Shown: positions 21,038 through 26,928 of the stretch, one piece after another
Numbering within the stretch: the stretch's first letter is position 1
Layout of the letters: every line of letters begins with the position of its first letter
DNA from: Candidatus Gastranaerophilales bacterium
GTDB taxonomy: Bacteria; Cyanobacteriota; Vampirovibrionia; Gastranaerophilales; Gastranaerophilaceae
Length of the DNA stretch: 34,164 nucleotides
NCBI GenBank assembly: GCA_947624645.1
Contig: CANQLG010000019.1
Location: 1 to 34,164 of the forward strand
Direction of reading: 5' to 3'
The notes under the pieces: generated by a model
Database searches by the model: none
What the model saw: the letters and a program-made list of their open reading frames with translations, nothing else
Told to the model about the DNA's origin: nothing
Position numbers and translations under genes: made by a program

Positions 21038-24000
21038 TTATGAATTACCCAAACTGAAGATATTATAAATTTCTTCATCCGATAATTCTGTTATAACCTT
21101 TTCACCTTCAAATACAGCCAGATTTACAAGTTCTTTTTTCTGTTTAATCATCTCGTCTATTTTTTCTTCAAAAGTGCCTAAAGTTACCAGCCTATGTACC
21201 ATAACATTTTTATTTTGACCGATACGGTAGCTTCTGTCCGTTGCTTGTTCTTCAACCGCAGGATTCCACCATAAGTCATAATGTATAACATTTGTAGCCG
21301 AAGTTAAATTCAATCCCGTTCCGCCGGCTTTTAATGACAGAAGCATTATTTTTTGCTCAGGATTAACTTCAAATTCATGAAGCATATTCTGCCTTTGAGT
21401 TGTATTTAAAGAGCCATGGAAAAACAACGGAGTTATATTAAGCTCATTTTGGATAATAGTTGAAAGAATATTTCCCATTTCTTTATACTGCGTAAAAGCA
21501 ATAACTTTTTCATCATTTTCAAGAATTTGAGCTAAAAGAGAAATAAATTTTTCGGTTTTACCTGAAACATCCTTTGTCATTTCCCCATATTTTAAGTACT
21601 GGAACGGATGATTACAAATTTGCTTAAGCGCTGTAATAAGTTTAAATATTATTCCTCGTCTGTTTATTCCTTTTTGATTCGAAATATCATTCATCATTGA
21701 ATTTAAAGTTTTTTCATAAAGAGCAGCTTGTGATTTTGTTAAATAACAATATTCATCAAGAACCATTTTTTCAGGTAAATCATCAATAATTGTTTTATCG
21801 GTTTTTAATCGTCTTAAAACAAACGGTGATATGGACAATTTAAGTTTATCCGCCTGTTCATACTGTTTAAATCTTTCAATTGGGATAGCATAGCACTTTT
21901 GAAAATCTCTGATTGAACCTAAATAACCTTTATTTATAAAATCAAAAATACTCCAAAGTTCCGTAAGTTTATTTTCAACAGGAGTACCCGTCATTGCTAT
22001 TTTTATATCGGATTTTAAAGATTTAACGGCAGTTGTTTGAGAAGTATCGGGGTTTTTTATATTTTGTGCTTCATCAACAATAACCATACCCCATTGAGTC
22101 TTTTTTACTTCCTCTATATCAATTCTGAGAATAGCAAAAGTTGTAATAATAACATCAGATTTCAAATTTAATACACGTTCGGGGCCATGGTAAGCTACGG
22201 CATTTAAAGACGGTGCAAACATTTTTAACTCTTTAAGCCAATTCCCCATTAATGTTGTAGGACAAATAACCAAAACCGGAGCTTTTAATTTATTTTCTTC
22301 TTTTAACTTTAATATTAAACTTATAACCTGAATAGTTTTTCCTAAGCCCATATCGTCAGCAATACAAGAGCCAAATCCCTTAGTTGTATTTGTATACAGC
22401 CATTTTAATCCACCTACCTGATACGGTCTTAATTCACCGTTTAATTTTTCGGGCGGTGTTACCTCGACAGTTTTTCCGATATCCTTAACTATGTTTGCAA
22501 ATGCCTGATCATAATCAAATTCATATTCATTTAAATGACCGGAAAATGCGGCATGAAGCATTTCCATTCGTGTAATTTTATCCACTTTCGGATTTTTAAG
22601 TTTATTAATAATTGCCTGTGCTTCATTTTGGTCTATAAGAATATATTTATTTTTAAACTCTATTATCCCGTTAGCATCTTTAATAAGTTTTTCAAATTCT
22701 TCAACCGAAATTTTTTCATCACCGATAGCAACCTGAAACGAAAAATCAAAAATACTTGATAAACTGATATTTCCTCCTTTACCGTTTAAGATATCCGCAA
22801 CTTCCTGTTCTCTTGATGCCTTTATTTTCGCATTTATAGAAGCTCTTGGAACAACTATATTTCCGAAATTCGGAGGGAAATTTATATTAATTCCCGCTTT
22901 ATTTAAATAATAAGCGGTATGAATCATCAATTTATATACATCATTCAACGAAAGGTATAATTTATGATTACTTTCATCATCAAAAAGAGTTTCCAGCTCT
23001 TTATAGTATCTTAGTGCATAATTAAGCTGTTTTTCAACAATATTTACAAGATACGAATTTTGATATCCCCAGCTCGTCCCATCTTTATCTATTTCCAACA
23101 GTTGTTTTTTGGGTTCTTTAGCATTAAGTTTTTCGTCATTAGCTTTGACAGAAATTGTTAATAAAAACCTATCCTCTTCAATTTTTTCAATATCCAATTG
23201 AGGGCTTACGGGATATTTGCCTATATAAATTTCATCAAGCCATTCTGATATAGCATCCGCAACATCCAAAGAACGAATATATCGCTTACTATTTATGGGC
23301 TTTAGAAAATAAACGGAAGATTCAAGCTCTTTAAAACGATATGCTTTAAATTTTAAGAACATGAAAATTACGTAATTTAAATAATTTTCAATTAAAATAT
23401 CAGCAATATTTTTAATATCCGAAATTACCGAAAAATCAAGCGAATAAACTTCATCAACGGAATCTTGCAGAAAATCATTTATTGCGAACATTTCATAAGA
23501 TATGCTGAATAAATTATCCGTTTTATTAACTTTTGGAAGAAAATATAATTTTTCAACAACTTTTTTAACAAATTGAGTAATAGTATTTAAAACTTTAAAT
23601 GAGTCCGAAATATTTATAGTGTCAATAATTGAGTCAAATCCTGAAAAATACTCCCAAATAAGCTCTAATGGAATTTTATATCCGATTTTTTCTGTTTCCC
23701 GACCGTTTTCTCTGATGGTACATGTACAAGAAGAGAATCGATACATAGAGCCTTTGGTTTTCAGGTAAAAATCAAAATTATTTGTAGGACTAACAAATAC
23801 TTCAATATTTTTACCGTTTTTAATAATATGAAAGTCAGTATTTTTAATAACATGGCTTGAATTTTGAAAAGTTAAAGCAAATTCATCTTCCACAAGCTGA
23901 TAAATTGTACTCAACATAAGCCTGAAATCTTTTTTTTCAAGTCCGACAGGATTTTCAGTCAGATTATGAAACATTTCATCAATATTATTTTTTTTAAAAG

Positions 24001-24040: not shown

Positions 24041-24174
24041 AAAGACCTCAAAAACTCACCATTTTTTATATTATACATAAAAAATATTTATTTTGAAAAT
24101 CCTTGTTTAATTAAGCTTCTCGTGGTAAAATTGGCTAGTTTTCCTATATGTAGTTATAAGACAGGAGTTAAGGT

Positions 24175-25143
24175 ATGAAAAAATTATTAACAGGATTTTA
24201 CGCATTAATCCTAACATTTTGTTTTGCCTGTATATCAAATGCGTGTGATATAGAGGGGCTTTATGATAACTATCAGGCAGTATATATGCCCTCAACAAAT
24301 ACTTGGACAACAGGTGGAATGGCTGATGACAGAATTGTTTTAACGAAAAAAACTTCGACAGGGTCAGGCAGTTATTCAGAATACTATAACAGTGACGGAA
24401 CTTTAGCTGTTGCTTTAGATTCTAATTTTGAATTTATTAAGGACGGAAGACTTATTGCAGTTGACAATGCAGACCTTAAATATTACGAAGTCAAGTATGA
24501 AGATGGCAAATTTACGGAAAAACCGCTTTGTGAAGCAGAATTGGCAGAAATATTTCCTAAAGCTCAAATAGTTAAAATATCAGAATTCCAAAAAAATAAA
24601 ATAACCGTAAATAAACTCGTTTCAGAAGATAAAATAATAGTTTTATTAAATGATACAGATAAATCATTCTATAAATATTCCTGCAATCCGAATGTACAAA
24701 ATAAAGATATAAAAGGATTATTAAAATTAACAACAAAAGGTAAAGTTAAATTTTCACACTACGGAGATAAGAAGAATCTATACACGATAAAAGTCAAAAC
24801 AGGTTTAGGATGTGCATGCAAAGAAAAATGTAATTGCCTAAAAAACGGCGAGAAATGCACATGCGGCGAAAAATGCAACTGCAAAGAAAAATGTAACTGT
24901 CTAAAAGATGGCGAAAAATGTACTTGTGGTGAAAATTGCAATTGCAAAGAGAAATGTAACTGTCTAAAAGACGGCGAAAAATGCACATGTAGCGAAAACT
25001 GCAACTGCAAAGAAAAATGTAACTGTCTAAAAGACGGAGAAAAATGCACCTGTGGCGAAAATTGCAATTGCAAAAAAGAATGTAACTGTTTAAAAGACGG
25101 AGAAAAATGCACTTGCGGCGAAAATTGCAATTGCAAAAAATAG
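24175..25143 (+). CDS. Secreted cysteine-repeat (metallothionein-like) protein
   Basis: A 322-residue product. The signal peptide covers about 1-23 (hydrophobic LLTGFYALILTFCFAC; cleavage probably in SNA-C). Residues 24-212 form a beta-rich domain I cannot assign. Residues 213-322 hold 32 Cys in 110 residues, arranged as five exact-length 21-residue repeats with the pattern C-x3-C-x-C-x6-C-x-C-x3-C-x, and a final C. Repeated CxC pairs (CNC, CTC) with Lys/Glu spacers and no aromatics are typical of metallothioneins, which bind Zn, Cu or Cd by thiolate clusters. Typical bacterial metallothioneins are small and cytoplasmic, so an exported repeat form would be unusual. Disulfide cross-linking is an alternative. 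It shares a unit with the TPR gene 15 nt downstream. AGGAG precedes the ATG. Confidence 0.8.
   Translation: MKKLLTGFYALILTFCFACISNACDIEGLYDNYQAVYMPSTNTWTTGGMADDRIVLTKKTSTGSGSYSEYYNSDGTLAVALDSNFEFIKDGRLIAVDNADLKYYEVKYEDGKFTEKPLCEAELAEIFPKAQIVKISEFQKNKITVNKLVSEDKIIVLLNDTDKSFYKYSCNPNVQNKDIKGLLKLTTKGKVKFSHYGDKKNLYTIKVKTGLGCACKEKCNCLKNGEKCTCGEKCNCKEKCNCLKDGEKCTCGENCNCKEKCNCLKDGEKCTCSENCNCKEKCNCLKDGEKCTCGENCNCKKECNCLKDGEKCTCGENCNCKK
24817..25131 (+). repeat. Five in-frame 63-bp tandem repeats encoding Cys clusters
   Basis: Five consecutive 63-base units (codons 215-319). They differ mainly at third positions (for example TGT/TGC, GGC/GGT, AAC/AAT), while the Cys positions are identical in all five. 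Amino-acid variation is limited to a few sites (Lys/Asn/Asp and Gly/Ser). The pattern suggests old duplication with selection on the protein, plus potential for copy-number change. Confidence 0.93.
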
Positions 25144-25158
25144 TTGGAAAGGGAAATT

Positions 25159-25821
25159 ATGAAAAAGATATTACTAACAACAATTGTTATGTTAGGATTG
25201 ACAGCAGGAGCTTTTGCTTCATCACTCACAGATTATGAAGCAGGCAGAGCAGCCTATGATGCAAAAGATTATACAACGGCAATAACTAAATATGACAGTG
25301 CAATAAAACAAAATTCAAAATATGCCGAAGCATATTACGGAAAAGGTGAAGCACAAATGGAGCTTCAACAATATGACGATGCCATAAAATCTTTTACCAA
25401 AGTTATAACATTAAAACCCAAATCAGCAGACGGATATTACGGAAGAGGAGCGGCAAATGCTTCAAAACAAAATTGGGCTGCCGCAAAAAAAGATTTAGAT
25501 ATTGCTGTTAAATATGATCCAAATAATTATGAAAAATATGAAGCACGTTCAATGGTTCTGTATGAATTAAAAGAGAAAGATGCAGCTTATGCGGATATAG
25601 AAAAAGCTATATCTTTGGCACCTAATGAACCTACTCCATACCGTTTAAGAGCATTATTCAAACTTGGAGACTTAAAATTCCGTGCAGCCAGAGCTGATTT
25701 CAGCTATGCAAAGAAAATAGAAAAAGCAAAAACAAAAGCGGAAAAGAAAGCTGCCAAAGAAGCAAAAAAAGCAGAAAAAGCAGAAAAAGCAGCACAAAAG
25801 GCAGAAAAAGCTTCTAAATAG
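25159..25821 (+). CDS. Secreted TPR protein with Lys/Ala/Glu-rich tail
   Basis: A 220-residue product. The signal peptide covers about 1-20 (MLGLTAGAFA-S). Four TPR-like units follow at about 24-57, 58-91, 92-125 and 126-159 (AYYGKGEAQMELQQYDDAIK, GYYGRGAANASKQNWAAAK), plus a partial one. A tail at 185-220 made almost only of Lys, Ala and Glu is likely a charged helix or coiled coil. The start is ATG 25159, with AAGGGA upstream; the frame reading from 25144 is excluded by the ribosome site. Only 15 nt separate it from the Cys-repeat gene, so the two are probably co-translated and may work together in the periplasm, for example with the TPR unit binding a partner. No enzymatic motif is present. 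Confidence 0.78.
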   Translation: MKKILLTTIVMLGLTAGAFASSLTDYEAGRAAYDAKDYTTAITKYDSAIKQNSKYAEAYYGKGEAQMELQQYDDAIKSFTKVITLKPKSADGYYGRGAANASKQNWAAAKKDLDIAVKYDPNNYEKYEARSMVLYELKEKDAAYADIEKAISLAPNEPTPYRLRALFKLGDLKFRAARADFSYAKKIEKAKTKAEKKAAKEAKKAEKAEKAAQKAEKASK

Positions 25822-25896: not shown

Positions 25897-26928
25897 ATGA
25901 AATATAAAAGCTGTCACTTAATAGAGCATGGAATATCAATAAACATTGATTCCGTTCAGGCTTGTTGTTTATCCAGAGAATTTAATAAAGGACAGCTTCC
26001 TATTCTTACTAATTATTCAAACAATAAAATTAACTGGGACGAGATATTTGAAATAAAAAATCGTCACAGAAAACATCAAAAAGTACAAGACTTAACACTT
26101 TGTGAAGGGTGTTATAATTTAAGAGAAGAAGATTGGGACGAGGAAGATTATATTTCCTTTATTAATTTTGACCATTGGAGTCATTGTAATTCAAATTGTA
26201 TATACTGTTGCGTTCAAACATATAAGCAAAAGCAAAAAAATAATATATTGGGAGCTATTAAAGACTTAATAAAACAGAAAAAATTCAAACCCACGGGAGA
26301 AATAACTTTTCAAGGCGGAGAACCTACAATATTAAAAGAATTTGAAGCTCTGTTAAAATTGTTTATTAAAGAAGGAGCAAAAATAAGAATCCATTCATCA
26401 GGTATATTATTCAGCAGAGCCATAAGAGACGGCTTAAAGAAAGGTAATGTAACCGTTGTTATATCTCCGGATGCAGGCACAAGAGAAACATATAAAAAAG
26501 TTAAACGTACGGATAAATTTGATAAAGTATGGAAAAATATTGAACATTACCGCAAAGGATTAAAAGAAGACTTTGCAAAAAATGTTAAAGTTAAATTCAT
26601 AATAATTCCCGGAGTAAATGATTCATTCGAAGAAATAACGATATTTTTAAATAAAATTAAAAAACTTGATATAAAAAGTATTGTTACGGATGTAGAATAT
26701 ACCTATGCTAATCAAAATATAAATAATATTTCTCCGCATGTATATATGTTGATGGATTATATAGAAGATTTTGCCAAAAATAATAATATAAATTACGAAT
26801 TATATGATTCGGCATTATATGCGCAACGGCAAAGACAATCGGAAAAAATAACGGAATTTAATCCTGAGAACATAGAAAAAGTTAAAAATCAAAACTTAAA
26901 TAAAAATATTAAGTATCAGAATTCTTAA
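25897..26928 (+). CDS. Radical SAM protein with N-terminal twitch/SPASM-like Cys region
   Basis: A 343-residue radical SAM enzyme. The cluster motif CNSNCIYC (C97, C101, C104; CX3CX2C) is preceded by WSH and followed by the GGEPT SAM-binding loop (140-144) and a SAM-strand-like 'VVISPDAGTRETYKKV' (about 184-200). The N-terminal region carries C6, C23/C24 and C69/C72 (CEGC) in an arrangement like the N-terminal twitch/SPASM segment of radical SAM proteins in which the auxiliary cluster precedes the barrel. So a second Fe-S cluster is likely. The substrate is unknown; such proteins often sit in surface polysaccharide or peptide modification loci. AAAAGGAAA precedes the ATG. Its 3' end overlaps the convergent membrane-protein gene by 20 bp. 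No obvious precursor peptide gene is adjacent. Confidence 0.82.
   Translation: MKYKSCHLIEHGISINIDSVQACCLSREFNKGQLPILTNYSNNKINWDEIFEIKNRHRKHQKVQDLTLCEGCYNLREEDWDEEDYISFINFDHWSHCNSNCIYCCVQTYKQKQKNNILGAIKDLIKQKKFKPTGEITFQGGEPTILKEFEALLKLFIKEGAKIRIHSSGILFSRAIRDGLKKGNVTVVISPDAGTRETYKKVKRTDKFDKVWKNIEHYRKGLKEDFAKNVKVKFIIIPGVNDSFEEITIFLNKIKKLDIKSIVTDVEYTYANQNINNISPHVYMLMDYIEDFAKNNNINYELYDSALYAQRQRQSEKITEFNPENIEKVKNQNLNKNIKYQNS

Follow-up and report, generated by a model that had tools for sequence, protein, structure and literature searches.

The locus at positions 24175 to 25143 raises the question of whether a protein with a dense, periodic cysteine tail and a predicted signal peptide is a metallothionein placed outside the cytosol. 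The original prediction had read it as a possible new class of secreted metallothionein. The window, that is, the whole stretch of 34,164 nucleotides that was analysed, is contig C19 of a 2.14-Mb MAG that is 99.8% complete and whose nearest genomes are those of Candidatus Gastranaerophilales, several of them sampled from rabbit gut.

Anatomy of the gene and its product

The gene (24175..25143, + strand) starts with ATG, encodes 322 amino acids plus a stop and has syntenic orthologues in other MAGs. The open reading frame, the predicted signal peptide, a domain of about 190 residues, 32 cysteines in 110 residues and five exact repeats of 21 residues, all described in the original prediction, were confirmed. 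The repeat array is not an assembly artefact, since orthologues in independent MAGs also have a tail, at the corresponding syntenic position. A reverse-strand ORF at 24759-25229 was found to be the mirror of the repeat and was rejected as a gene.

Upstream, a ribosome-binding site AGGAG (24163..24167, + strand) and a putative promoter (24103..24131, + strand) comprising TTGTTT (24103-24108), a 17-nt spacer and TAAAAT (24126-24131) were read from the sequence. GGAG was kept 5' of nearly all orthologues and TTGTTT...TGCTATAAT 5' of most of them; the promoter assignment is tentative because it lies below the reach of the consensus scan. TTGTTT and a TATAAT-like box are common to the promoters of the orthologues, with no palindrome evident among them, and no CsoR-like operator with up to 3 mismatches was present near 24175, the nearest being at 21984 and 25638. 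The gene may be constitutive, and the missing operator speaks against a metallothionein-like role.

Residues 1-23 (24175..24243, + strand) were predicted to form a type I signal peptide, with MKK, a hydrophobic core and an AxA-like cleavage site, SNA/CDIEG, just before 24244. The corresponding place in orthologues reads IANA/C, VYA/A or QAYEF, and the site looks like type I (SNA/C) and not like a lipobox because the orthologue L004 has VYA/AD there. The signal begins MKKLLTGF and lacks a twin arginine. On the strength of this peptide, the protein is predicted to be exported.

The tail, residues 213-322 (24811..25140, + strand), holds 32 of the 37 cysteines of the protein (29% Cys), with 16 CxC pairs, 23 K and 19 D/E, and is devoid of F, Y, W, H and M. 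Tandem repeat analysis (TRF) and the cysteine periodicity agreed on five 63-nt copies (24817..25131, + strand), each encoding 21 residues and 6 cysteines, at 24817-24879, 24880-24942, 24943-25005, 25006-25068 and 25069-25131; TRF returned period 63, 5.1 copies, 88% matches and 0 indels. The unit, C-x3-C-x-C-x6-C-x-C-x3-C-x, recurs in register in all five copies, and the cysteine autocorrelation at lag 21 was 26, against a maximum of 18 among 20,000 shuffles of the tail. When the copies were compared with each other, pS was 0.63 and pN 0.038, the differences being mostly at third positions; the resulting pN/pS of about 0.06 is rough because pS is near saturation. At cysteine codons, all 14 pairwise differences were synonymous. 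The cysteines of the tail are clearly under selection.

A high cysteine content in CxC motifs with few or no aromatic residues is the broad description of a metallothionein, and the tail fits it. Profile support, which the original prediction had proposed as a check, was not obtained: of the curated metallothionein profiles, PF00131 reached E 1.4 and 9.5 bits (cut-off 23) with the 322-residue protein, no bacterial metallothionein model was among the matches listed for it, and the orthologue L031 gave only PF02068 at E 0.58. The same prediction had held that homology to an EGF- or granulin-type disulfide family would speak against it; none was present in Pfam at E up to 10. In NCBIfam, SclA, LpxD, EntB and similar families matched below cut-off and were judged compositional.

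The array varies among relatives at one locus

Orthologous tails, whose repeat number the original prediction had suggested surveying, differed at the syntenic locus: L036 has none, L039 a stub with 5 Cys and L031 as many as 38, and the units are 6, 20 or 21 residues long. Within the family the array lies at the C terminus (5-38 Cys), directly after the signal peptide, or at both places: in L043 and L044 a Cys cluster directly after the signal peptide replaces the tail, and L042 has both. The 21-residue periodicity is thus real here, but the basic unit of the family is the CxC pair, with gaps mostly of 3-6 residues, and the 21-residue repeat is an arrangement peculiar to the lineage of the window. 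In the nearest pair of tails, L033 and L041, 19/19 cysteines were kept and 8/35 other residues differed. Several tails have odd numbers of cysteines (5, 13, 15, 19 and 23), which supports a metallothionein-like reading.

When 40 N-domains were placed in a tree, those with an array fell into one weakly supported part (82/45), inside which the tail-less L012, L018 and L036 also sit. Both one gain followed by losses and several gains fit this pattern. Copy number and spacing may vary freely because a CxC array would require cysteine density alone and no fixed fold; the varied unit, number and spacing of the tails would not fit a disulfide-folded domain.

The N-domain and its neighborhood

The N-domain, residues 24-210 (24244..24804, + strand; about 187 residues), is beta-rich and conserved in genomes of the family. 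Its unassigned status in the original prediction stood, as neither Pfam nor NCBIfam gave a match above cut-off, and sequence searches of the PDB with the whole protein and with an N-domain profile found nothing. An AlphaFold2 model of residues 24-212 was likewise beta-rich (mean pLDDT 81, pTM 0.82); compared with the PDB by Foldseek and VIA-align, it matched common folds no more than weakly (best E 0.042, Z not above 5.5), and these matches divided into propeller-like blades over residues 7-100 and cupredoxins over 104-185. The cupredoxin matches to the second half reached at best Z 4.9 over 71 residues at an rmsd of 3.2 Å, with Foldseek E > 0.04, a level common by chance. The domain appears to have no obvious conserved metal site, since Cys and His are never invariant in an alignment of 14 sequences.

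Relatives of the N-domain were found in 119 of 191 family genomes and 26 of 41 genera, mostly without a Cys array; most are N-domain-only proteins of about 210-250 aa. That so many members lack the array counts against the metallothionein-like reading. In distant relatives (L211, L212, L215, L216, L221 and L222) the domain is the C-terminal part of proteins of about 580-620 aa. L211, the single one of these scanned, carries a zinc ribbon at its N terminus as well as a hydrophobic segment and is possibly a membrane sensor or scaffold. Identity among relatives was mostly about 85-98% for the flanking proteins and 55-70% for the N-domain (94% for the partial orthologue L032); the N-domain being far below its flanks, the gene evolves fast. 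A tblastn search of plasmids with the whole 322-residue protein gave no matches.

The syntenic order is SNF2 helicase, N-domain gene, sometimes a TPR gene, radical-SAM-like gene, gatC and pyrG. The radical-SAM-like gene (25897-26928, + strand) adjoins the N-domain gene in most orthologous loci. An exported TPR protein of 220 aa (25159..25821, + strand; Pfam TPR_16, E 1.3e-17) begins 15 nt past the stop at 25143, and the N-domain/TPR gene pair recurs in L004/L040, L005, L006, L008, L009, L012, L034, L043 and L044, including other genera. This pairing across genera suggests that the two proteins may function together.

A small metallothionein-like protein is linked to a CsoR-family gene

A cytosolic metallothionein-like protein of 38 aa, MAKCSNPKCKCENCTCGDNCQCDGETCNCPDCADKKEE, is encoded on contig C40 of the same genome (L090:2036-2149, + strand), followed by a CsoR/RicR-family repressor gene (the pair, L090:2036-2472, + strand). 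The small protein had no Pfam or NCBIfam match, and tblastn with it gave one weak partial match in plasmids and one in phages. The same gene order was seen in 12/12 loci inspected, and a 39-aa version of the protein is identical in amino acids in 7 loci from several genera. The adjoining gene, the only CsoR-family gene found in the genome, matched PF02583 at E 2.5e-25; its best NCBIfam match was RicR at E 7e-17, below that model's cut-off. A palindrome of the TATACCC-N5-GGGTAT type lies between the -35 (TTGACA) and the -10 in 7/7 aligned promoters of the small gene, one half being imperfect in some, and the only exact CsoR-like site in the genome is the one at this gene. Since mycobacterial RicR controls the copper metallothionein gene mymT (PMC6337107), the natural reading of the pair is a copper-responsive metallothionein operon.

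The small protein carries the motif CxCGDNCxC, and its CTCGDNCQC compares with CTCGENCNC in the tail. This shared CTCG[DE]NC-x-C appears to be the strongest link of the tail to metal; the motif is short and the composition biased, and the likeness (CxCG[DE]NCxC) could be convergence.

Similar arrays occur on other proteins

Cysteine arrays were also observed on exported proteins of other kinds. L077, of 210 aa, has 51 Cys and not much besides; at L218:4610-5239 (+ strand, G002:C18) an exported protein, likewise of 210 aa with 51 Cys, consists almost wholly of CxC arrays and is encoded directly after a flavodoxin-like gene. In L080, a signal peptide is followed by a Cys array and then a helical domain; assignment of this second half to Spy/CpxP or Metal_resist (LTXXQ) fell below cut-off at E 0.26-0.31 and is suggestive only. 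Exported Cys-rich proteins with Spy/CpxP-like helical second halves were noticed at two loci, one with LTXXQ similarity below cut-off (L217:3634-4413, + strand, G241:C26) and one, from contig C6 of the window's own genome, that is Spy/CpxP-like in look, with no LTXXQ similarity (L139:1449-2009, + strand).

Two cytosolic proteins are similarly equipped: a MinD-type ATPase extended at its N terminus by a Cys/His-rich, metallothionein-like segment (L213:546-1745, - strand, G039:C20) and an ADP-forming acyl-CoA synthetase-like protein with a short C-terminal Cys tail, CNCGEGCECGEICTC (L214:228-2426, + strand, G097:C12), for which further matches were found in G180:C14 and G223:C12. A match to the tail in L219 (G225:C25) proved to be an unrelated CSFGE-type pentapeptide-like repeat beside DNA methyltransferase-like ORFs. 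A phylum-level DNA pattern for three CxC pairs was abandoned because low-complexity GTG-type repeats dominated its matches and a reversed control was equally high.

Interpretation and alternative explanations

We consider the 322-residue protein to be an exported, modular metallothionein-like array, with a probability of about 0.58. It would leave the cytosol by the Sec route and reach the cell envelope, beyond the inner membrane, with the beta-rich N-domain serving as carrier for the tail. The five 6-Cys units would use their CxC pairs to bind soft metal ions in thiolate clusters; Cu(I) is the most plausible ion, with Zn or Cd also possible, and the protein would thereby buffer or capture metal outside the cytosol. 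The shared motif, the CsoR link of the small relative and the cytosolic arrays favor thiolate metal binding, plausibly of Cu(I); the arrays on L213 and L214 point this way because disulfides are unexpected in the cytosol.

A broader version of this reading is tentative, and we think it somewhat doubtful. It holds that the small CsoR-linked cytosolic copper metallothionein and related arrays on several exported proteins and cytosolic enzymes form a modular metallothionein cassette. The exported proteins would be the N-domain family, the Spy/CpxP-like protein and the free-standing 51-Cys protein. Together they would make up a metal-capture layer of the Gastranaerophilaceae envelope, with the arrays rebuilt independently in each species.

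The serious rival to the metallothionein-like reading, though the less probable of the two in our estimate, is that the tail is a disulfide cross-linker, oxidised by VKOR-DsbA and joining proteins of the N-domain family into a tough layer in the envelope or at the surface. Our prediction of an envelope free of disulfide machinery, a condition that would have favored reduced thiols, was wrong: VKOR was found in 28/28 relatives searched, in which DsbB was absent in every case (28/28), and contig C5 of the window's own genome encodes VKOR fused to a DsbA-like domain (L220:1545-2732, - strand). The hosts of this VKOR are gut bacteria thought to be anaerobic. Among proteins with 2-8 Cys, even counts outnumbered odd ones by 24 to 6 in exported proteins and by 363 to 249 in cytosolic ones (one-sided Fisher P 0.016), in a count that covers 1.62 Mb of the genome with crude signal-peptide and gene calls; the skew of the exported proteins vanishes when 1-Cys proteins are added (24 versus 25). 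Given the fusion and the skew, exported or envelope thiols may be oxidised. Cys-rich structural proteins such as CotY/CotZ, CdeC and CdeM offer a precedent, cross-linking of this sort having been proposed for spore-coat proteins (PMC6101409). The presence of CxC arrays on cytosolic proteins and on the CsoR-linked small protein argues against cross-linking, as do the tight CxC spacing, which strains intramolecular pairing, and the odd counts and varied spacing of several tails; irregular intermolecular cross-linking would, however, tolerate odd counts, variable spacing and CxC arrays elsewhere.

Much less probable is that the tail serves at the cell surface to store sulfur or as a sacrificial redox buffer, acting on oxidants, electrophiles or sulfide-derived species with no specific metal. 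The high thiol density of a protein that a gut anaerobe exports would suit such a role, and some bacterial metallothioneins, such as PmtA, guard against oxidative stress (PMC11237414), but the flanking genes (SNF2 helicase, TPR, radical-SAM-like, GatC and PyrG) include none for redox or sulfur recycling and the CsoR link of the small relative indicates metal. We regard it as very unlikely that the array arose by selfish or neutral expansion of low-complexity sequence and has no function of its own, for although copy number varies strongly and near relatives have no array (L036) or a stub (L039), the low pN/pS between copies, the unchanged cysteine codons, a Cys pattern kept across species while spacer residues change, and the recurrence of similar arrays on several protein types all speak against it.

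Significance and relation to known systems

A search of the open-access literature turned up neither a paper on proteins of this type in Gastranaerophilales nor one that uses the phrase "periplasmic metallothionein." The bacterial metallothioneins found there are small and, except for PmtA with its unexplained surface exposure (PMC11237414), intracellular. If the preferred reading of an exported metallothionein-like array is true, a Sec-exported tandem array on a lineage-specific carrier would mean that thiolate metal buffers are deployed by bacteria beyond the cytosol as well, and in the animal gut, a setting in which Cu and Zn are under host control. The question raised is whether a thiol-dense array can stay reduced and metal loaded where the envelope has a disulfide oxidase, and the variable arrays at one syntenic locus would serve as a natural experiment in how loosely a metallothionein can be constrained.

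Like SmtA and BmtA, which come from the same phylum, the protein is Cys-rich and has CxC motifs. SmtA is small, and its GATA-like zinc-finger core contains hydrophobic and His residues, whereas the window's tail lacks aromatics and His, comprises five tandem copies behind a signal peptide and is unmatched by the Pfam metallothionein models. Proteins of the SmtA/BmtA type are wholly Cys-rich and cytosolic; here only residues 213-322 are Cys-rich and a signal peptide is predicted. Csp1 is also exported with many cysteines and is a proposed holder of Cu(I) outside the cytosol (PMC7558416), but it is a Tat-exported four-helix bundle lined with cysteines, whereas in the window's protein these lie in short hydrophilic CxC repeats that follow the beta-rich N-domain, and a twin arginine is missing from the signal. 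The protein is therefore not a member of the described SmtA/BmtA and Csp families. PmtA resembles it as a metallothionein reported outside the cytoplasm (PMC11237414) but lacks a signal peptide, and a classical one is predicted here. CdeC/CdeM and CotY/CotZ share a high cysteine content, sequence repeats and an outer-layer location; all are, however, spore proteins, with about 8-9% Cys in CdeC and CdeM compared with 29% in the tail, and the accessible part of the source describes no CxC arrays in them (PMC6101409). A further counterpart is MymT, a CxC-rich thiolate protein under RicR control (PMC6337107), to which the small relative beside its CsoR/RicR-family gene corresponds; MymT itself is 4.9 kDa, whereas the window's protein has 322 residues, a predicted export signal, a 110-residue array and a gene of its own without such an operator. 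An exported metallothionein-like array is the best reading of the locus, and "new class," as originally proposed, is too strong a term; the domain is of a known kind, and what is new is the architecture in which it is found.
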